Part shown: positions 2,582-16,459 of the stretch, piece by piece
How the letters are laid out: each line of letters starts with the position of its first letter
Numbering within the stretch: position 1 is the first letter of the stretch
The notes under the pieces: generated by a model
Told to the model about the DNA's origin: nothing
What the model saw: only the letters and a program-made list of their open reading frames with translations
The model's database searches: none
Made by a program: the position numbers and the translations under genes
Source of the DNA: a bacterium
GTDB taxonomy: Bacteria; SZUA-182; DTGQ01
Direction: 5' to 3'
NCBI GenBank assembly: GCA_023512255.1
Contig: JAILZY010000067.1
Coordinates: 1-18,545, forward strand
DNA length: 18,545 bases

Positions 2582-2706
2582 TTTGGAAGGAACCCTTTTG
2601 AAAAAGGGTTCCTTCCAAACCATCCTCCTAAAACTTTAATATATATATTAAAGTTTTAGGAAAGGGGTACAAGGGGAAAACCCTTTTTCAAAAGGGTTTT
2701 CCCCTT
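2582..2706. repeat. Compound palindromic repeat: two inverted hairpin modules around a 34-bp palindrome
   Basis: There are three hairpins in a row. The first has 18-bp arms (2582-2599 and 2602-2619). The centre, 2627-2660, is a perfect 34-bp palindrome. The third has 17-bp arms (2671-2687 and 2690-2706). The left half, reverse-complemented, closely matches the right half: both read TTAAAGTTTTAGG, then a G-rich spacer, then GGAA..CCCTTTTT. The element is therefore two copies of one module in inverted orientation, as in REPIN or MITE-like elements. Its right end overlaps the stop codon of the ATPase gene at 2706. It may also act as a transcription terminator or mRNA-stability element between the two genes. 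Confidence 0.85.
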
Positions 2707-3710
2707 TAATCGGCAAACAATAGGTCTGCTGTTCGCGAAAGCATAGGCAGCCCGCGAACCTCAGTCTCAAGGAGTGGCAGAATAGCCCGGACCTGGCCGC
2801 TGAATTTTTCTCTGATTGTCCTCATGTGCTCTTCTTGCATCCTGGCACGGCTTTGGACAAATTCAGCCGCACCATCGGTGATCGTCGATCGATCGATCAT
2901 CATATTGACAATAACTCCTCCTACTGGAATTCCAAACTCATGAAACCAGTCCACAAAGCGGGTGATTACGGCAATGGGTAAGGCCTCTGGTAAGGTAACG
3001 AAAAAGAAGCTGGTTCTGGCTGAATCGGTCAGAAGAAGGCGGGCATGCTCCATACGGTCCCGAAATCCAGTCAGATAATCCATGAGAGGATCGGGCTCTT
3101 TTTTTTTGCTGAATGAGAGCATCTCACGCAAAGATCTTGCCTCCTGTCGGGATTTCATCATCTTATTGACCCAGAGGCTATAGACCTTAGACATGCCAAG
3201 CAGCCGCCGAGCATTAGCCGTCGGAGCAGTGTCAAAGACATAGACCTCGTATTCGTCCCGGAACATAAGATCAATCATATTTTCAAACATAGCCGACTCT
3301 TCAAAGGCTGGGTTCATAGTAGCCGAGTCCACAAACTCATCCGCCTTGGTTCTAAGGTCGGCAAACTTAAGAAACCACTGAATCTTATCCCTGATTTCCT
3401 GCTTGGAGCGGCTGATGGTTTCCCGGGTGTCGATCTCGTAGGCAAAGAGATTGGGGGCGCCACTGACTGGCGTAGGCCGCCCAAAGACATCCTGAGATAG
3501 CAGCCCAGACAGGCTATGCACCGGATTAGTTGAAGCCAGCAAAGTCCGCCGTCCCTGCCTGGCATACCAAAGGGCTGTGGCCCCGGCCATGACGGTTTTG
3601 CCCACTCCGCCCTTGCCGCCAAAGAAGATATATTTGAGAGTGGAAATCTCCTGGAGGTAGGATTTCATCGACTTATCAATCTCAGTCATAGATTTATCAG
3701 TGTCAGTCAT
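2706..3710 (-). CDS. ArsA/Get3-like P-loop ATPase, second of a tandem pair (switch I Asp replaced by Asn)
   Basis: A 334-residue ATPase of the ArsA/Get3 (TRC40) branch of the SIMIBI class. These act as nucleotide-driven dimers that handle anions or hydrophobic membrane-protein segments. The deviant Walker A is GGKGGVGKT (31-39). Switch I reads STNPVHSLS (60-68), where the usual form is STDPxHSLS, so Asn62 replaces the conserved Asp. Switch II is well kept as DTAPT (160-164). NMM at 269-271 fits the later nucleotide-base region. The ATG at 3710 is preceded by GAGGAAATAAATC, and the N-terminus contains a small MTDTDKS/MTEIDKS repeat. The gene starts 26 bases after the other ATPase gene and is surely co-transcribed with it. 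No arsenic genes or Cys-rich metal site are seen, so an arsenite pump role is unlikely. The substrate is unknown. Confidence 0.88.
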   Translation of the reverse strand: MTDTDKSMTEIDKSMKSYLQEISTLKYIFFGGKGGVGKTVMAGATALWYARQGRRTLLASTNPVHSLSGLLSQDVFGRPTPVSGAPNLFAYEIDTRETISRSKQEIRDKIQWFLKFADLRTKADEFVDSATMNPAFEESAMFENMIDLMFRDEYEVYVFDTAPTANARRLLGMSKVYSLWVNKMMKSRQEARSLREMLSFSKKKEPDPLMDYLTGFRDRMEHARLLLTDSARTSFFFVTLPEALPIAVITRFVDWFHEFGIPVGGVIVNMMIDRSTITDGAAEFVQSRARMQEEHMRTIREKFSGQVRAILPLLETEVRGLPMLSRTADLLFAD

Positions 3711-3736
3711 GATTTATTTCCTCATCCAGAATTTAT

Positions 3737-4711
3737 CTAAAAATCACCATACATAATATGGGACAGCTTCTCAACCATAGCTAACCCGGTTACATCCCGC
3801 TCAAGCTCCGGTACAAAGGCTTTGACTTGATCGCCAAAAACTTCCCTGATCTTATCCAGATATCCCTTCTGCATCTCTATCCGGTGTCTGAGATAAGCGG
3901 GAATATTCTGTTTGAGCAGCTCATCGGGAATTAGCCGATTGACCACATAACCGGCAATAGGTACATAATCGGCAAAGAGCTGGGCAGCATTTTGGGTATC
4001 GAGGATGATCATCTCCTCGGGCACAAGGACAAAGAAAAAGGCGGTCTTTTGCCTATCGGTCAGGATCTGCGATGAGGTATTGATGCGCTGCTTAATGTAG
4101 AGAAGCTCACTGAGAATCTTATCCTCTTCCCTCTCCTGAGTGCGCTTCATCACCGAGGCCATACGATCGTACTCGGCCATCTCTTGGCGTAGGCTGGTGA
4201 TCTTGTTGATCCACTCATCATATATCCTGGCCATCTTCAAGTAGTAGAGAGCATGGCCAAGAGGCACCAGATCATAGATGTAATAATCGTAGCTGCCTTC
4301 CTTGATAATGTCCACAACGGCATCGAAAATGGCCGACTCTTCCATAGCTGGCTCGGCCCCAGCAGCCTGAAGATAATTTTCAATCTCATCGGGCACCTTG
4401 TCAAGGCCGTACATATCGAGGATCTTCTGCCGAATCTCCTGCTGATACTCCTTGATGCGCCGGTCAGCATCAACTTCCTGAGCCCAGAGATTATCCATGA
4501 TCTTCACTGGCCCCTGGCCGAAGATATCCCGCTGAAAGATATCGCTAAGGCTGGCCTGTGGATCTACGGAAAAGACCAGCACCTTTCTGCCAGTTTTGGC
4601 TAGCCAAAAGGCCGTAGCTGCGGAAAATGTGGTCTTGCCAAGCCCCCCTTTCCCACCAAACATGATATAGCGGCGGTCAGGGTTTCGCTCAAAAATTTCT
4701 CGCAACGACAT
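3737..4711 (-). CDS. ArsA/Get3-like P-loop ATPase, first of a tandem pair (degenerate switch II)
   Basis: A 324-residue paralog of the next gene. The Walker A is GGKGGLGKT (19-27) and switch I is SVDPQASLS (48-56) with the conserved Asp50 kept. The family motif DTAPTGH is degraded to DLVPLGH (147-153). The middle (about 160-215) is charged and helical, where Get3-type proteins place their client-binding helices. MEESAIFD (123-130) has a direct counterpart, FEESAMFE, in the partner, so the two were made by duplication. The ATG at 4711 has AAGGAG about 12 bases upstream. The gene lies 21 bases after the coiled-coil gene and 26 before its paralog. Tandem ArsA-like genes forming a heterodimer are known in mycobacteria (Rv3679-Rv3680). 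A heterodimer here is inference. Confidence 0.88.
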   Translation of the reverse strand: MSLREIFERNPDRRYIMFGGKGGLGKTTFSAATAFWLAKTGRKVLVFSVDPQASLSDIFQRDIFGQGPVKIMDNLWAQEVDADRRIKEYQQEIRQKILDMYGLDKVPDEIENYLQAAGAEPAMEESAIFDAVVDIIKEGSYDYYIYDLVPLGHALYYLKMARIYDEWINKITSLRQEMAEYDRMASVMKRTQEREEDKILSELLYIKQRINTSSQILTDRQKTAFFFVLVPEEMIILDTQNAAQLFADYVPIAGYVVNRLIPDELLKQNIPAYLRHRIEMQKGYLDKIREVFGDQVKAFVPELERDVTGLAMVEKLSHIMYGDF

Positions 4712-4732
4712 GATATTTTTACTCCTTATGCC

Positions 4733-5179
4733 TCATAAGCGGTGCATGATCTGCTCATGCTCATCGAATCTGTCAGCGATTTTTTCTACCTTATCCTCAA
4801 CCCGGTGCAGATCAGCTTTAAGCTCCCGGAGGTCAGATTTAATTTCGGCCACATCAGTCTTTAGCTCAGCCACGTCGGTCTTAAGATTAGCTACGTCAGC
4901 TTTCAATTCCTTTACTTGTTTGTTAGTCTTGTCTATCTTTTGGTTCAACTGCTTGTTCATACTAGCCATCATGGCCTGAGCTTCGTTGAACCTTTGATCT
5001 ATCTTTCTATCCAGCTCATCTGTCCGCCTATCAAACTTTTCATTTAAAGCAGCCACTCCCTCAGCTACGATCTGAACCTTGCTGATCACATCCTCAGCTA
5101 TGATGTGAAACTGATGGATAATATCTTTCTGAAAATGGGTCAACCTCTCATCTATATAATCTTTGGTTTCTCTGTCCAT
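4733..5179 (-). CDS. Heptad-repeat coiled-coil protein, function unknown
   Basis: The product has 148 residues, is highly charged and has no signal or membrane segment. From about residue 40 to 140 it is almost continuous coiled coil, with a clear seven-residue repeat (LKTDVAE, LKTDVAE, IKSDLRE, LKADLHR). The N-terminal 45 residues (MDRETKDYIDERL... HQFHIIAED) are a separate short helix region. Such proteins usually form trimers or tetramers and act as scaffolds. No enzyme motif is present. The gene lies 21 bases before the first ArsA-like ATPase, so it is likely part of the same operon. The ribosome site before the ATG at 5179 is weak (GGA only). Function and partners are unknown, and similar coiled coils also occur alone in other genomes. 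Confidence 0.75.
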   Translation of the reverse strand: MDRETKDYIDERLTHFQKDIIHQFHIIAEDVISKVQIVAEGVAALNEKFDRRTDELDRKIDQRFNEAQAMMASMNKQLNQKIDKTNKQVKELKADVANLKTDVAELKTDVAEIKSDLRELKADLHRVEDKVEKIADRFDEHEQIMHRL

Positions 5180-5222
5180 ATCTAAATTCCATACTTAACC
5201 TAGGCCTTTTGAGCCCCAAATC

Positions 5223-5342
5223 TTAATGCTTAAAACTATGGTCAAACTTTCCCTGAATCAGATGCTCAATGTCCAGAAGATACTTAAAAGCTAGATAACC
5301 AACGCTAGATCGCCAGCTTTTTTCCTCAGGCCATAGCGTCGG
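5223..5342 (-). pseudogene. Start-less open frame, probable gene remnant
   Basis: A 39-codon frame open between stops, ending ...FKYLLDIEHLIQGKFDHSFKH, reads like real protein (mixed hydrophobic and charged, no low complexity). It has no ATG, GTG or TTG start. It begins inside the end of the upstream small gene, in another frame. It could be the tail of a decayed gene, a frame reached by ribosomal frameshifting, or chance. The rest of the gap between 5180 and 5325 holds nothing else I can name. Confidence 0.3.
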
Positions 5343-5637
5343 TCAGGTCTTTTTCCCGCAACATCCGACGTTTCCAAGTACTAATCTGCGGCACCACATA
5401 GGGCAGAAGGCGCAAGGAGTAGTAAGGCGGCAGGATGGGCACACCGAGAAGGTCGCCCATGGTGATTAGAATGAACAGGTGCTCCATGCTGGCCCGAGTT
5501 TTCATGGCCTGGCGGGTCATGTCATGGGCAGCCATGCCGTATATCAGCTCTTTGATCTGGCTTAAGGATCTGCGCAAGAGTCCCTCTTTTTTCGGTCTCT
5601 CTGACTTTGGTAATTCTGATTTTGGCACTTCTGACAT
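5326..5637 (-). CDS. Small conserved-looking protein with PPYYSLRLLPY core, paralog of the preceding gene
   Basis: From the ATG at 5637 the product has 103 residues. A GTG at 5691 would add 18 residues, but GAGGAG 9 bases before 5637 and the matching length of the paralog favour the shorter form. The N-terminus has an SEVPK/SELPK/SERPK repeat. Residues about 52-83 form a hydrophobic stretch holding GDLLGVPILPPYYSLRLLPY, followed by a basic end (WKRRMLREKDL). It is strongly similar to the gene at 5745-6059. The hydrophobic core broken by prolines suggests a membrane-associated or re-entrant helix rather than a simple transmembrane span. I do not recognise a named family. It lies upstream of the coiled-coil and ArsA-like genes, in the same orientation, and probably works with them. 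Confidence 0.75.
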   Translation of the reverse strand: MSEVPKSELPKSERPKKEGLLRRSLSQIKELIYGMAAHDMTRQAMKTRASMEHLFILITMGDLLGVPILPPYYSLRLLPYVVPQISTWKRRMLREKDLTDAMA

Positions 5638-5744
5638 AGCGGTTGACTCCTCATCAGTCAGTGTGGTAAAGTTTTTATGCAAAAAAACCACAGCCTCATT
5701 ACCCCAATTATCCCAAAAATTTTGCTTAACTAACGAGCCTCGAT

Positions 5745-6059
5745 TTATCCAAGGCTATCCCCTTCTCCTAAGAGATCAACGATGTCCCGCTCACGAAGCA
5801 TCTCGACCTGCCAGCGATGGATTGAAGGCAGAATATAGGGCAGGAGGCGCAGAGAGTAGTAAGGCGAAAGGATGGGCAAACCTAAAAGATCACCCACCAG
5901 AAGGAGCATGAACATCCGCTCCACGTAGGTCCGCTCGCGCCTTAAGCTGATCCAAAATCCATAAGCCGTCATCCCATACCAGACATCGGCTGCTGCTCTG
6001 GCCCATCGGCGCAAGGTGGCCATGAGGTTACTTAGCCTTGACATGCTCATTTTCTCCAT
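5745..6059 (-). CDS. Small protein with SPYYSLRLLPY core, paralog of the following gene
   Basis: The product has 104 residues. Residues about 27-95 align throughout with the neighbour: the GMTAY/GMAAH start, then GDLLGLPILSPYYSLRLLPY (56-75), then EMLRERDI near the end. The segment MFMLLLVGDLLGLPIL is hydrophobic and the flanks are rich in Arg, which fits a protein lying at the inner face of a membrane. Starts at 6059, 6050 and 6044 are all possible. GGAG overlaps the first ATG and lies at a good distance from the third. The gene is 107 bases upstream of its paralog and heads the cluster leading to the two ATPases. The function is unknown, and the two proteins may form a heteromer. Confidence 0.75.
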   Translation of the reverse strand: MEKMSMSRLSNLMATLRRWARAAADVWYGMTAYGFWISLRRERTYVERMFMLLLVGDLLGLPILSPYYSLRLLPYILPSIHRWQVEMLRERDIVDLLGEGDSLG

Positions 6060-6266: not shown

Positions 6267-8069
6267 CTAAGTTGTGAGTGGACCTGTTGCGGCTTGCGGT
6301 TGTCCTTTAGCCTGCGCCTGGGCTTTAAGCCGCAAATAGGCTTTCCAGCCTTCCCAGGCCAAAAAGAGGGCCGCAGCCACCAGAAAAAGGGCCAAAAGAA
6401 CCAAAATGCTGGCGCCAATAATGGCCAGGCCGCTGTAGCCTGGCTTGCCCCAGTTGGGAGCAACAACCGTGATGTACAGGTTCCAGGCAGTAATCAGGTT
6501 GGCAAAGACCGTAGTTACATACATAAAGAACATGGGCAGAGCTACCCACAGGGCTTTCTTCCCCTCCGAAACCAACCAGAGGGTAATCAGCATAAGGGTC
6601 AGCGAGGCCATCAGTTGATTGGCGCCGCCAAAGAGTTGAAATAGGTAGGTAAAAGTGCCTGAGAGAACCACAAAAAACACCAGGGCTGAGGAAATAAGCG
6701 TGCCAAGATGAATATTATGAATGAGGGGGAAGCTTCCACCCAACCACTCGGCCAGGGAGACACGCATAAAGCGGATGGCCAACTGAAGCATGGTAATAAT
6801 GATAATAACAAAGGCGGCAAAGGCTATCGAGCTGCCATACTTAGGATCTAGCCCAAAGATGGACAGGAAATTTCCCACACCCTCGGCAAAGGCTGCCGCA
6901 CCGCCACCTTTTCCGGCCACCGAGATGGCCATCAGGGAAAGAAGCGCTAGCAGCATCTCGCTAAACATTGAGCCGCTGCCAACAGCTAAGGCATCGGTTT
7001 CATTCTCAAGTTGCCGAGCCGTGCCTACGGTCGAGATCAGCCCATGCCAGCCAGATATAGCACCACAAGCGATGGTAATAAAGAGCATTGGCCACAGGGG
7101 CTGGAGAGCACCCCGAGTGCCCACATTCCAGGCTTTGAAGGCGGATATGGTGAAGGTAGCTAGCTGAGGTCTGACCAAGACGGCCAGACCCGCCCCCAGA
7201 AAGCCGCCGATGAGGGTAATAGCCATTACCCAAAAGCCAATATAGTTGATAGGCTGAGCATAGCGCCAGATAGGCAAGGTAGCGCCAAGGTAGCAAAAGA
7301 GAATGGTAAACAGCAGCCAGAAAATATAGCTTGGAGTAACCTTCAGATAGCCGTTAGTCATCGGATCAAAGACCGAGTAGAGGGGCTCTCCTGCCGTGAG
7401 GCTATTGAGCGCATTGTTCAGCCCGCTAACTAGCCCGCTCACCGCTCCGCTAGGGCCAAGAATAATAGCCAGCATGGTCAATCCGACAATGACCAGCGTC
7501 GTTACCGCCAGCCCCATCCGCCACCGGTAGAGCATCTGGCCACCCATAAGACCAGCCAAAACCAAAACCACAATGCCAAGCGGTACACTCGGCGTGTTGG
7601 AAAAAACCGAAGCCATCAGATTGCCGAAGGCACCGGCCACAACCAGAAGATAAGCAAAGATAAAGATCAGCAAGATAATGCGACTGGCTGGAGAAACCAG
7701 CTTGTGGGCTGTAGCGCTGAGTGAGTCTCCGTCGCGGCGCACCGACATCATCAGGCTGCAATAATCCTGCACCCAGCCAATGAAGCTGACGCCAACCAGC
7801 AGCCAGATAAGCGCTGGCAGCCACCCCCATAGGCTAACCGCAGTAATAACCCCCACAATAGGCCCGGCAGCAGCTATGGACTTGAACTGAAACCCATAGA
7901 GAACGTAGCGGCTAGCTGGGGAAAAATCCACCCCGTCCATGTACATTCTGGCCGGAGTTATCTTTTTGGGATCAGCCTTGATGACGTCTCGGTCAATTTT
8001 TCTAGCATACCAGTTGTGGCCAAGGTAGCAGGTAACTGCCCCAAGGGCTAGGGTGAGCAGGGTATTCAT
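6267..8069 (-). CDS. cstA: CstA-family carbon starvation / pyruvate-peptide transporter
   Basis: A 600-residue inner-membrane protein with about 16 hydrophobic segments, matching CstA throughout. The N-terminal ARMYMDGVDFSPASRYVLYGFQFKSIAAAGPIVG and the GWVQDYCSLMMSVRRDGDSLSATA region are characteristic. In enterobacteria CstA and its relative BtsT take up pyruvate and, by older reports, peptides. The substrate here is inferred only from the family. The length is at the short end compared with about 700 in E. coli, and the C-terminus is a basic Gln/Ala-rich tail. AAGGAG lies 8 bases before the ATG. The small YbdD-type partner often found with cstA is not visible downstream. The 207-base gap to the next gene suggests a separate transcript. 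Confidence 0.93.
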   Translation of the reverse strand: MNTLLTLALGAVTCYLGHNWYARKIDRDVIKADPKKITPARMYMDGVDFSPASRYVLYGFQFKSIAAAGPIVGVITAVSLWGWLPALIWLLVGVSFIGWVQDYCSLMMSVRRDGDSLSATAHKLVSPASRIILLIFIFAYLLVVAGAFGNLMASVFSNTPSVPLGIVVLVLAGLMGGQMLYRWRMGLAVTTLVIVGLTMLAIILGPSGAVSGLVSGLNNALNSLTAGEPLYSVFDPMTNGYLKVTPSYIFWLLFTILFCYLGATLPIWRYAQPINYIGFWVMAITLIGGFLGAGLAVLVRPQLATFTISAFKAWNVGTRGALQPLWPMLFITIACGAISGWHGLISTVGTARQLENETDALAVGSGSMFSEMLLALLSLMAISVAGKGGGAAAFAEGVGNFLSIFGLDPKYGSSIAFAAFVIIIITMLQLAIRFMRVSLAEWLGGSFPLIHNIHLGTLISSALVFFVVLSGTFTYLFQLFGGANQLMASLTLMLITLWLVSEGKKALWVALPMFFMYVTTVFANLITAWNLYITVVAPNWGKPGYSGLAIIGASILVLLALFLVAAALFLAWEGWKAYLRLKAQAQAKGQPQAATGPLTT

Positions 8070-9264: not shown

Positions 9265-10938
9265 ATGAAATCTCTAGGTAAGAAGCTATTCTTTTTGATC
9301 TTCTGTGGACTCATAGTTATCAGCTATTCATCAGCTGCATATCCACAGATAGCTACAGGCAATGAAAAGGCGCTGGCGGCAGCAGCCCTGACGCCTCTTC
9401 CCATCGAGGAGGTAAGTGCTCTGACTCCTCTTCCAATAGAGGAGGTAAGTGAAGCCAAGTCGCTACCTGCAATCACAACAACCACGTACACTTTAACTAC
9501 GGCAGATGCGGTCTTAGATAGCATGACTGACCTGACGGCAGCAGCTAACGTGGTTCCATGGCCGCACTGGTGGTATAAGAATGAGTATTTAAGAAATAAC
9601 ACGAGGCAGATCGCTTACGATGCAGTAAAAATATTGCGCGGCTGGTGGCCAATTAGGGGAATGTACTCAAATGTATTCCGGCAGAGGATGTGGTGGTGGG
9701 TAATGGATTGGTATGGCCGCAGGTGGACAGTGCTTAAGTGGAGAGGCGGAGCACTCCCCCCTGGTGGTAGTGCGTATCTTTGTTTCTGGGCCTTTGGCTG
9801 GAGCCCTCCACGGGTTGCCGCATTCTGGTGGACTGATAGGCGTCAGTGGCCAATACTACCCTACTGCAATGCTGCTATCAGTGTGGAAGTTAACTTTATG
9901 GATATGGGCGACAATCGGTTTGCCCCAGTGATAACCTTAGGTAATTTCCAGATGACCGACATCAAGATTGATGAAACCAATCCTGAGTTCTGGGAAGATG
10001 GAGGCTTTGAGTTAGGCGGAGAGACAGGCTCGACGATCAATATTGTAAGTGCGAAAGCGGCTATTGTGGATAAGAAGTTCACTGCTGAGACCTTGAATTT
10101 AGAAAATACCATTAAGTCATCGGATTTAGGACAATATTTCATGGACGTCAAAATACCAGCGTCCACCATACAATATGGTCAAGCAATACCACTTCCACCA
10201 CTCACCGCTGCGGATGGTGCTCCGCTGACTATGGCCACTGGCCAATCATTGGTAATCGTAGTTGAGCTGGCGAGCGGAGACTATGAGCTAGTCAGTGTTG
10301 AAACTCCTATCCCCTCTAAATGTGGAGAAACGGATATGGGAATGCTCGATATCCAAGATACCGAACAGCATCTTGGCGGAGTGGTAAGCATACCAATCAG
10401 GATCCAGGGAGCAGCTAACCAAGTATTCAGCGCTGGGTTTGATCTTACCTATGATCCTGGGGTGCTGAGTTATCTTACTTTTACCAAAGGCCCCCTTAGT
10501 AATAAATTTAAGATGCTTGAGGTAGCCAGGGTTGAGCCCGGACGCCTGCGCATCGGCTGGGTTGATACTGTCGGCAGCATCGTACCTGGAGAGAGCGGAG
10601 ATGTTATTTATCTCCAATTCCAGGTCATCGGCGGAGTGGAAAATCAGAGCTATCCCTTGAGGTTAGACGCACTTAGAGATGATATTGCCGACTGGCCAGC
10701 CTCAGGAGGCTGCCTGACCGTTTCATCTTGTAATGGTGATTTGAACGGAGATGGTAGCATAACGCCGACCGATGCTCTTATTGCTATGCGATGCTATCTA
10801 GGAAGTGGAGACTGCCCGATCTGCGCTGATGTCAATACTGATGGTGTGGTTACACCCCGTGACGCCTTATGCATCCTGGAAAAATATCTAGGCATCCCAT
10901 CCTGTCTTGATCAGAGAGAGCCAGTAGCCGCCTATTAA
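9265..10938 (+). CDS. Exported Trp-rich protein with cohesin-like and dockerin domains
   Basis: The product has 557 residues. A basic start and hydrophobic stretch (6-25) form a signal peptide. Residues 41-62 are an 11-residue tandem repeat (ALTPLPIEEVS twice). Residues 98-197 contain about 16 Trp, including WWW at 143-145. After a beta-rich middle comes a cohesin-like domain (about 358-475; ISIPIRIQG-type start, AGFDLTYDPGVL, GDVIYLQFQV). A type I-like dockerin (490-547) with two calcium loops, DLNGDGSIT (492-500) and DVNTDGVVT (522-530), follows. Cohesin binds dockerin, so the protein might self-associate or join a surface complex. No catalytic domain or sorting signal is seen, so a cellulosome role is not supported. 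AAGGAGGAG precedes the ATG by 5 bases. The function is unknown, and the N-terminal part is unlike any family I recognise. Confidence 0.88.
   Translation: MKSLGKKLFFLIFCGLIVISYSSAAYPQIATGNEKALAAAALTPLPIEEVSALTPLPIEEVSEAKSLPAITTTTYTLTTADAVLDSMTDLTAAANVVPWPHWWYKNEYLRNNTRQIAYDAVKILRGWWPIRGMYSNVFRQRMWWWVMDWYGRRWTVLKWRGGALPPGGSAYLCFWAFGWSPPRVAAFWWTDRRQWPILPYCNAAISVEVNFMDMGDNRFAPVITLGNFQMTDIKIDETNPEFWEDGGFELGGETGSTINIVSAKAAIVDKKFTAETLNLENTIKSSDLGQYFMDVKIPASTIQYGQAIPLPPLTAADGAPLTMATGQSLVIVVELASGDYELVSVETPIPSKCGETDMGMLDIQDTEQHLGGVVSIPIRIQGAANQVFSAGFDLTYDPGVLSYLTFTKGPLSNKFKMLEVARVEPGRLRIGWVDTVGSIVPGESGDVIYLQFQVIGGVENQSYPLRLDALRDDIADWPASGGCLTVSSCNGDLNGDGSITPTDALIAMRCYLGSGDCPICADVNTDGVVTPRDALCILEKYLGIPSCLDQREPVAAY
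9385..9450 (+). repeat. 33-bp in-frame tandem duplication
   Basis: 9385-9417 and 9418-9450 encode the same 11 residues (ALTPLPIEEVS) with silent differences only. This suggests a duplication old enough to have drifted, yet kept at the protein level. It lies just after the signal peptide. Confidence 0.85.
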
Positions 10939-14300: not shown

Positions 14301-15465
14301 AGTCAAGCTTTCGCTCTATCCAATAAGTAGCCAGGAGAAAAAAGAATATGGAAAGCTGATCATTTGGCCGAGCATTCTTCAGCAGAGAGAAGGTGATTTT
14401 CGACTCCTCGGTCTCACCTCGCTGGAATAACAGGGTGGCTTTCAGGGCTCGATACGCCCCTAGGTACTCATTATTGTCTTGCTTTTCCTCCACACTGCGG
14501 ATAAACCCGAGCATCTCAGCCAGCCAGTCAGGCTGTCCAGTTTTCATCAAGGCCAGAATAAAGAATAGGCCGCTTACCTGCCTGAAGTAGAGCTTTCTTC
14601 GATCTGACCCTTTTCGATAGCGCTTCAAGGCCGCCTGATAGCGAGCAATGGCCTGGTCATTATTTCCCCGCAGAAAATCACACCAGGCTTCGATAAGCTC
14701 TGCATAGATCAATCCCTTATCTTGATCTTGTTTGACTACTTGAAGAGCCTCATCTAACTGGCCCTGAAAAATCAAGATCCTAGCCAGAGCATCCCGAAGA
14801 TATGGGCCGCTTTGCTCATCAGCAGTAAGAGTGCGGTATTCGGCCAATAGCTCAGTTATTTTTCCAGGTGAAGCCAAATCTTGCAGAGTCAGACTTGTGG
14901 TTTCAAGGAGGGCAGAGGCTCTGATTTCTAGCGGTAGTTTACGGAACCACAGGGGGCGAAAGGGATTGTTGCAGATTTTGGCAAAAATCTTTATCCGAGC
15001 AAATCTCTGTGGATAATTTACCAAGCCAAGATGGTAGAATTTCCTAATCTGATCCAGATTATGGCTATATACTCCAATGCGGATTTCGCGGATATATCTT
15101 TCAGCTTCCATATTCCAGCCTAAAGCCGGTATCTCCTCCTGAACCGCTTTGACCATCATGGGAAATTGGCCGCTTTCAACCGCCAGTGTGGTCGCCTCCT
15201 CTACAAATGAGGGATGACACACGATCTGATCGCCGATAAACCCCTCTTTTCTGAGCGCACTCAACACGCCTTTCACATCCTGTCCACTCAGGGTTTTTCC
15301 TTCAGCCGTTTTGGCTCCGATTCTTCTCAGGCACTTCAAAAGCGTAGTCTGGTTGGTTGGCTCGTAGATAACTGATAGCATCTGGATGGCTGTCTGCTCA
15401 AGAGGGGATAGCTTCGAATAGGCTGCCGGCAGCCTATTAAATTCTGAATTACTTAATAACAGCAT
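11308..15465 (-). CDS. SNF2-family DEAD/DEAH ATPase with long N-terminal extension
   Basis: A 1385-residue Swi2/Snf2-type double-stranded-DNA translocase. The ATPase core fills the last 450 residues: motif I DDMGLGKT (955-962), motif II DEAQ (1049-1052), motif III [19 protein letters not shown], then the C-terminal half with [36 protein letters not shown] and the arginine-finger motif RAHRIGQ (about 1324). All key residues are present. Residues 1-100 look like a winged helix. About 150-460 is helical and TPR-like (e.g. [23 protein letters not shown]). About 560-900 is beta-rich and would contact substrate or a partner. In bacteria such proteins act in transcription recycling, repair or phage defence. 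No restriction, methylase or other defence gene is beside it, so the role cannot be told from context. GAGAGAATCTAT precedes the ATG. Confidence 0.9.
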   Translation of the reverse strand: [1385 protein letters not shown]

Positions 15466-15518
15466 ATAGATTCTCTCTTTTTATTTTATTCTTATTTTTT
15501 CTCCAAAGTCAGAATTTA

Positions 15519-15770
15519 GTAGTCCTATCGCTAATAAAATAAAATGCTAAAAAATGCTAAAAATAAAATGCGTAATCGGAAATTATTTTTATAACTTATT
15601 GTTATTTAGAGACTTTCATTTCCAATAAAAATTGAGTTTTAAGTAACCTATTGATATATAGAGTTAGTTTGAATCTTAGTTTTTTAAAAAATTGTTTATT
15701 TTCAATTACTTATAGTTACGATAAAATCTAATTTTAATTACTGATCCGCTGTGCCCGCTTAGCGAGAAAA
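15519..15770. mobile_element. Degenerate relative of the 8158-8273 element
   Basis: The left end AGTCCTATCGCTAATAAAAT (about 15522-15541) matches the reverse complement of the right end of the 8158-8273 element (TCTTTTCGCTAATAAAATGC). The right end, TAATTACTGATCCGCTGTGC followed by CTTAGCGAGAAAACT, resembles the opposite end of that element read in reverse complement. The interior is AT-rich and different. This looks like an old, expanded or rearranged copy. It lies in the 358-base gene-free gap 15466-15823, upstream of the SNF2 gene. Confidence 0.4.
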
Positions 15771-15773
15771 CTT

Positions 15774-15827
15774 TTAGATTTAACCAGCAATTTAGATTTA
15801 ATAATTTTATTAGATTTAATAACTTAA
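15774..15827. repeat. Three 18-bp tandem units at the end of thyX
   Basis: TTAGATTTAA recurs at 15774, 15792 and 15810, exactly 18 bases apart. The second and third units also share the following T-A-A-rich bases. The array runs into the thyX stop codon (15824-15826). Its role is unknown; slipped duplication of AT-rich DNA is the simplest explanation. Confidence 0.6.
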
Positions 15828-16459
15828 TAAGTAATATCGTCGAAAATGACTGGAATCCTCCTCTTGAATTCATCGAGAAGAGGCCGAGCAATTTCAATCA
15901 TCTGGGGATGGGTGGCAGCTTGGGTCCTGAGTTTGAAAAAATGTCTCCACTCCCGCAGATTCATGGTCATGACCAGCTCGGTCTTGAGAGAGTTGGGAAG
16001 AACGCTTCTCGCCTCTTGGGGCGAAGCGCCCAATTCGAGGAGTTTTAGGTAGGCCCGCTCTGCCTCTTCCATAGCCTTTTTCCAGATGTCGTATTTTTGC
16101 TTATCTTCATCGCTTTCGCTCTTCCAAAAGCAAGGGGCAATGACCGTTATTTCATGACCGAATTTATTCTGACTATAGTTACAATAGCGGGTGCTTTCCT
16201 GACTGTAGCTGGCTATCCTATGCCTGACTATTTCATGGCTTACACCCCGATCGCAGACAACCCTGACGGTAACCTTCTCATGTTCCAGCACGGTCTCATG
16301 GCCATGTTCGATGATAAATTTTATAAACCCTCTTGCCGACTCAGGGGTAATTTTATGCTCACTTTTATAGCAAGTCCGCCCATATTTTTCAAGTTTTTTT
16401 AGTATTTCATCACCATCGATTCTATCTTCAATCACTGCCCAGGGCTGCACGATTTTCAT
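15824..16459 (-). CDS. thyX: Flavin-dependent thymidylate synthase ThyX
   Basis: The enzyme methylates dUMP to dTMP using methylene-tetrahydrofolate, with FAD and NADPH as reductant. It replaces ThyA in many anaerobes and thermophiles. The product has 211 residues, a normal length. The diagnostic motif RHRxxSxxxxSxR is present as RHRIASYSQESTR (79-91). Other family features are EHGHETVLEHEKVTV (51-65), the LPNSLKTELVMTMNLREWRHFFKLR region (about 154-178) and the closing AxHPQMxEIA helix. AGAGG lies 4 bases before the ATG, which is a slightly short spacing. It is transcribed alone, 358 bases from the SNF2 gene and divergent from the LRR gene. No folate genes are beside it. Confidence 0.96.
   Translation of the reverse strand: MKIVQPWAVIEDRIDGDEILKKLEKYGRTCYKSEHKITPESARGFIKFIIEHGHETVLEHEKVTVRVVCDRGVSHEIVRHRIASYSQESTRYCNYSQNKFGHEITVIAPCFWKSESDEDKQKYDIWKKAMEEAERAYLKLLELGASPQEARSVLPNSLKTELVMTMNLREWRHFFKLRTQAATHPQMIEIARPLLDEFKRRIPVIFDDITY

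Follow-up and report, generated by a model that had tools for sequence, protein, structure and literature searches.

Why should a bacterium keep two ATPases of the ArsA/Get3 family beside two tiny hydrophobic proteins when no arsenic genes accompany them? The question is raised by an 18,545-bp contig (JAILZY010000067.1, from a bacterium of the SZUA-182 lineage; this whole stretch of DNA is called the window below), which the original prediction had described as carrying a five-gene cassette. The five ORFs are indeed found on the minus strand at positions 2706-6059, encoding two small proteins (cory1 and cory2), a coiled-coil protein and two ATPases (ArsA-A and ArsA-B). The intergenic gaps between the last three genes are 21 and 26 bases, within the predicted spacing of less than 30. 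The predicted paralogy of the small proteins agrees with their 45% identity, no arsenic genes are seen in the window, as had been stated, and no ArsA-family match besides the ArsA-A/ArsA-B pair was found in the 3.83 Mb genome assembly. The cassette is the distal part of a CstA-type nutrient transporter operon that is widely conserved, and the lead gene of this operon had been missed.

That gene (6267-8069, minus strand) lies 207 bp upstream of the small-protein genes on the same strand and encodes a 600-aa protein of the CstA ("carbon starvation") family (PF02554, E 7e-101; 339 bits against a cut-off of 27). The AlphaFold2 model of the protein (pLDDT 84, pTM 0.86) reaches Z scores of about 22 to BasC, Nramp and KimA in structure comparison, and the family match and predicted fold together identify it as an APC/LeuT-fold transporter. 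Transporters of this fold usually run on ion gradients. CstA homologues accompanied by neither cory nor ArsA occur in the small phylum of the window itself and elsewhere, so ATP is not an inherent requirement of transporters of this type. These features lend weight to a purely regulatory role of the ATPases, the main rival to the mechanism proposed below: ATP binding and slow hydrolysis by the A-B pair would switch CstA on or off according to the energy state of the cell while transport remained ion-driven, as the fold shared with ion-driven secondary transporters and the many CstA proteins that have no ATPase partner would allow. KimA, an APC-fold protein among the best structural matches, has been solved with a cytoplasmic ligand, c-di-AMP, bound.

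Directly after the stop codon of ArsA-B, three tandem near-perfect hairpins (2586-2706, minus strand; RNA fold -73.2 kcal/mol, z -10.9) may form a terminator or represent an inserted repeat; none are present at the corresponding place in a congener (locus L011). Further downstream of the operon is a gene for an M6-family metalloprotease (200-1621), a close relative of which is also downstream in the congener but with inserted genes between. Elsewhere in the window, cohesin and dockerin domains both occur on one protein (9265-10938), and the congener locus also encodes a dockerin-like protein (15345-16286).

Conservation of the unit and its small proteins

A scan of GTDB genomes was carried out with eight cory proteins, and the best 80 of 360 relatives were kept; the tallies that follow depend on the search motif and on this selection. 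The arrangement CstA-cory-cory-ArsA-ArsA on one strand was found in 48 of the best 80 loci, most of the others being cut by contig ends. In 45 loci the flanking sequence extends for 3 kb or more upstream and 2.6 kb or more downstream; 42 of these carry CstA together with both ArsA genes and 41 carry two cory genes, and in nearly all of the 45 the CstA gene is upstream of the small proteins; orphan cory genes numbered only 3/45, and the small proteins are thus not regularly found far from ArsA-like genes. The hosts include Chloroflexota, Rokubacteria, deltaproteobacteria and betaproteobacteria, a spirochaete, an actinomycete and several archaea. As had been supposed, genes for the small proteins and for both ATPases therefore co-occur across distant phyla as a conserved unit unrelated to arsenic; in full, this unit consists of CstA, the two paralogous small proteins, ArsA-A and ArsA-B. 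Cory genes with neither CstA nor ArsA nearby were noted at L073:7971-8270, L063:805-1104, L062:3250-3519, L086:7860-8234 and L053:610-930; the second cory gene of L086 seems to have moved, because the same genome holds a CstA-cory-ArsA-ArsA locus elsewhere (L142).

The pattern recurs in individual phyla. Among 61 genomes of Chloroflexota, CstA is found in four and cory in five, and in the four genomes common to both the genes are adjacent; with the centre genome left out, CstA is in 3/60, cory in 4/60 and both in three (hypergeometric probability about 1e-4, 4/34220). Cory was detected in 14 of 29 archaeal genomes, in exactly two copies each, and the archaeal loci that were fetched mostly have the order cory1-CstA-cory2-A-B or similar orders. 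In control lists, Haloferax volcanii has matches for cory, CstA and ArsA but none for YbdD, the small protein encoded beside CstA of Escherichia coli, which the latter requires as a pyruvate importer (PMC5847655). CstA is present in 34 of 60 genomes of Pseudomonadota and YbdD in nine, each time close downstream of CstA; among these 60 genomes YbdD never occurs together with cory, which suggests that cory and YbdD are alternative partners of CstA. Many CstA proteins have neither. The E. coli system resembles the present one in that CstA has a small protein encoded adjacent to it, but cory lies outside the YbdD family (0/18 cory proteins match the PF04328 YbdD/Sel_put profile) and E. coli has no ATPase in the system.

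Cory1 (5745-6059, minus strand; 104 aa) has a proline-broken hydrophobic core. Cory2 (5326-5637, minus strand) is a protein of 103 aa if translated from an ATG at 5637, which is probably the start to judge from the congener; its ORF is open further, to a GTG at 5691 (5326-5691). Cory2, which directly precedes ArsA-A in most relatives, is the conserved paralog (70% average identity among second-position copies), whereas cory1 is more variable (49% average mutual identity among first-position copies; n=74 for each position). Cory1 and cory2 match NF041419 ("cory-CC-star") with E values of 1.6e-9 and 8e-9, as do 16 of 18 cory relatives (best E 3e-10), but their 35-38 bits do not reach the curated cut-off of 80 bits, so that they appear to be distant relatives of this family and not members by its curated rule. 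As a known Pfam family or a fragment of another known protein, cory gave weak chance matches only, and searches found no relative in the PDB and no match in plasmid records. The AlphaFold2 model of cory2 is of low confidence (pLDDT 65), for which reason it was left out of the fold search, and predicts a long helix broken at a conserved VPILPPYY. Each protein has one hydrophobic stretch, and both are likely to be small membrane-associated subunits.

The coiled-coil protein (4733-5179, minus strand; 148 aa), which had been predicted to be a scaffold within the cassette, was rejected as a core member because it is lineage-specific and multi-copy. It is present in the congener, where the gene order is CstA, cory1, cory2, coiled coil, ArsA-A, ArsA-B, but absent from L012 and L013 and from most other relatives; a further genome, from the same order, contains CstA-cory and cory-ArsA segments that lack it. 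The gap between cory2 and ArsA-A, about 610 bp in the window, exceeds 400 bp in only 1 of 59 relatives. Relatives of the coiled coil are encoded elsewhere in its own genome (C57 and C158), away from ArsA-like genes.

The association had been thought new, but the operon was already described by Castillo and Saier in 2010: CstA-CstX-ArsA operons were reported in 26 bacteria and archaea, without ars genes, with CstX of about 90 aa containing one predicted transmembrane segment, with ArsA proteins that have a single domain and about 330 residues, and with paired ArsA or paired CstX in some of the 26 genomes (PMC2963123). The locus in the window most probably belongs to this system: it has a CstA gene in the cluster, and its ArsA proteins, 324 and 334 aa long, contain one PF02374 stretch each. 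CstX may be equated with cory from its size, hydropathy and context; a search of the available literature found no later paper on CstX.

Active sites of the paired ATPases

Both ATPases are ArsA-like, as had been predicted. ArsA-A (3737-4711, minus strand; 324 aa; PF02374, E 6.5e-72) has the P-loop GKGGLGKT and a switch I motif SVDPQAS with a catalytic-type Asp50; ArsA-B (2706-3710, minus strand; 334 aa; PF02374, E 2.3e-67) has the P-loop GKGGVGKT and a switch I motif STNPVHS, in which Asn62 (codon AAT, 3525-3527, minus strand) aligns with the Asp of STDPAHS in archaeal Get3 (3ZQ6). This Asp is presumably the equivalent of D57 in yeast Get3. D57 is essential for hydrolysis, and the D57N mutant traps ATP without hydrolysing it (PMC12506534); ArsA-B would therefore be expected to act as an ATP-bound partner.

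The difference is a property of the paralogs. When the proteins were assigned to classes A and B from homology scores (pair counting by motif was avoided as circular), switch I had Asp in 71/71 A proteins (DPQAS, once DPLAS) and Asn in 64/64 B proteins (NPVHS), a tally that leaves out one unrelated third ArsA in L087. The rule holds in all further archaeal and bacterial pairs fetched, of which L123 duplicates the contig of L061. In switch II, the A proteins keep Gly-His (DLVPLGH; DMPPFGH in archaea) but the B proteins do not (DTAPTAN). A and B form separate clades in a phylogenetic tree (support 99/97 for A and 100/99 for B), each with archaea and bacteria; by this sequence evidence the split into two clades with different active sites is ancient, although its depth should be read cautiously because the branches between archaea and bacteria are long. 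The stop of A overlaps the start of B by 4 bp in 35 of 64 pairs measured (median gap -4). Correlations of evolutionary distances are r 0.95 for A with B, 0.87 for A with cory2 and 0.76 for CstA with cory1, values that still include shared organismal history. Co-inheritance, gene overlap and complementary motifs suggest that ArsA-A and ArsA-B form an obligate cytoplasmic heterodimer, made in equal amounts, with one hydrolytically competent site. ArsA-B may be wholly inactive; hydrolysis by ArsA-A itself is not certain because its motifs (DPQAS, DLVPLGH) are non-canonical. Strict retention of the catalytic Asp of A over the divide between archaea and bacteria suggests that hydrolysis matters and not only binding, which tells against the regulatory gate and leaves it an unlikely, if still substantial, alternative.

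The original prediction also proposed that the ATPases act as a Get3-like targeting or chaperone pair that places the small proteins (or, by extension, CstA) in the membrane or removes them from it. Archaeal Get3 proteins, of the same ATPase family, are the best solved relatives of the pair (E 3e-61 and 4e-56), and the small proteins are hydrophobic and encoded next to the ATPases. Yet the CXXC motif, a zinc motif of the Get3 dimer interface, is found in 0/65 A and 0/41 B proteins scored, compared with 2/2 archaeal Get3 proteins, and the helix-8 region, where TRC40 proteins have their insert, is charged in A and B and not hydrophobic: the best 11-residue hydropathy is 0.06 and 0.17, against a comparison value of 0.55 that comes from two archaeal Get3 references only. 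The hydrophobic insert is a hallmark of Get3 that ArsA has not retained, whereas CXXC is also missing from some true Get3 proteins (PMC10248533). In addition, the hydrophobic stretch of cory is in the middle of the protein, unlike a C-terminal tail anchor, the whole unit is associated with a single transporter, and, unlike Get3, the ATPases are two paralogs, one with a natural D57N-type change. With both CXXC and the hydrophobic insert missing, an insertion or extraction role is improbable.

Two other ArsA-fold systems offer a comparison. In ArsA-ArsB, an ArsA-fold ATPase with two ATP sites likewise serves a membrane transporter of another fold, but that ArsA is one fused two-domain protein, whereas here there are two genes, few cysteines (mean 0.4 per protein), another transporter and no ars genes. 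Against TIGR04291, the profile of this arsenical pump ATPase, ArsA-A and ArsA-B score 94-110 bits, below the cut-off of 650 bits. Mycobacterial BagA-BagB (Rv3679-Rv3680) are paired, co-encoded ArsA-fold ATPases that were solved together (6BS3-6BS5), but they match the present pair only weakly in sequence (E about 1e-6). Equally tight conservation and gene coupling would be expected if the ATPases were assembly factors that mature a CstA-cory complex and are not needed in each transport cycle, and genes for gas vesicle biogenesis are another setting in which ArsA homologues occur (PMC2963123). No positive evidence points to such a role, however, and ArsA-ArsB, the nearest pairing that has been studied, functions as a pump; assembly is accordingly given very little credence.

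Possible coupling of ATP hydrolysis to CstA

The proposed mechanism, which is given an even chance of being correct, is that ATP hydrolysis by the A-B pair is relayed by the small proteins to the APC-fold CstA, which it drives or gates. The genes would encode a membrane transport complex in which ArsA-A hydrolyses ATP by means of its retained switch I Asp and ArsA-B serves as the ATP-bound partner, by analogy with ABC transporters that have one degenerate site. In each cycle, one productive hydrolysis event would change the shape of the heterodimer, and the cory proteins would pass this change to CstA, so that transport is driven or strongly gated. That hydrolysis powers transport is suggested by analogy with ArsA acting on ArsB, and candidate substrates, by analogy with CstA of E. 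coli, are pyruvate or peptides. Energising and regulating roles of the ATPase pair would look alike at the level of sequence. A more specific reading, judged less likely than not, is that the unit represents a class of ATP-driven APC-fold transporters, in which an asymmetric Get3/ArsA-fold ATPase powers a LeuT-type carrier via small membrane subunits; such a transporter would consist of CstA, two cory proteins and the A-B pair, in which one site is live and the other dead by nature, and would extend from archaea to bacteria.

The association of CstA with ArsA has been known since 2010, when ArsA was proposed to energise CstA through CstX as the linker, homodimers of ArsA were suggested, and Asn was noted as a possible replacement of the motif Asp (PMC2963123). 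The paralog-specific split of active sites is new: variation between Asp and Asn was then unassigned to paralogs, whereas here it follows A and B strictly, and a heterodimer is predicted in place of homodimers. The split sharpens the earlier proposal into a testable one, a heterodimer with one hydrolytic site and a small-protein link. The strict tie of an ATPase pair to an APC-fold transporter in both bacteria and archaea suggests a second way in which such carriers may be powered or controlled, and the equally strict pairing of a live with a presumably dead ATPase makes the old question of the role of ATP in CstA transport directly testable.
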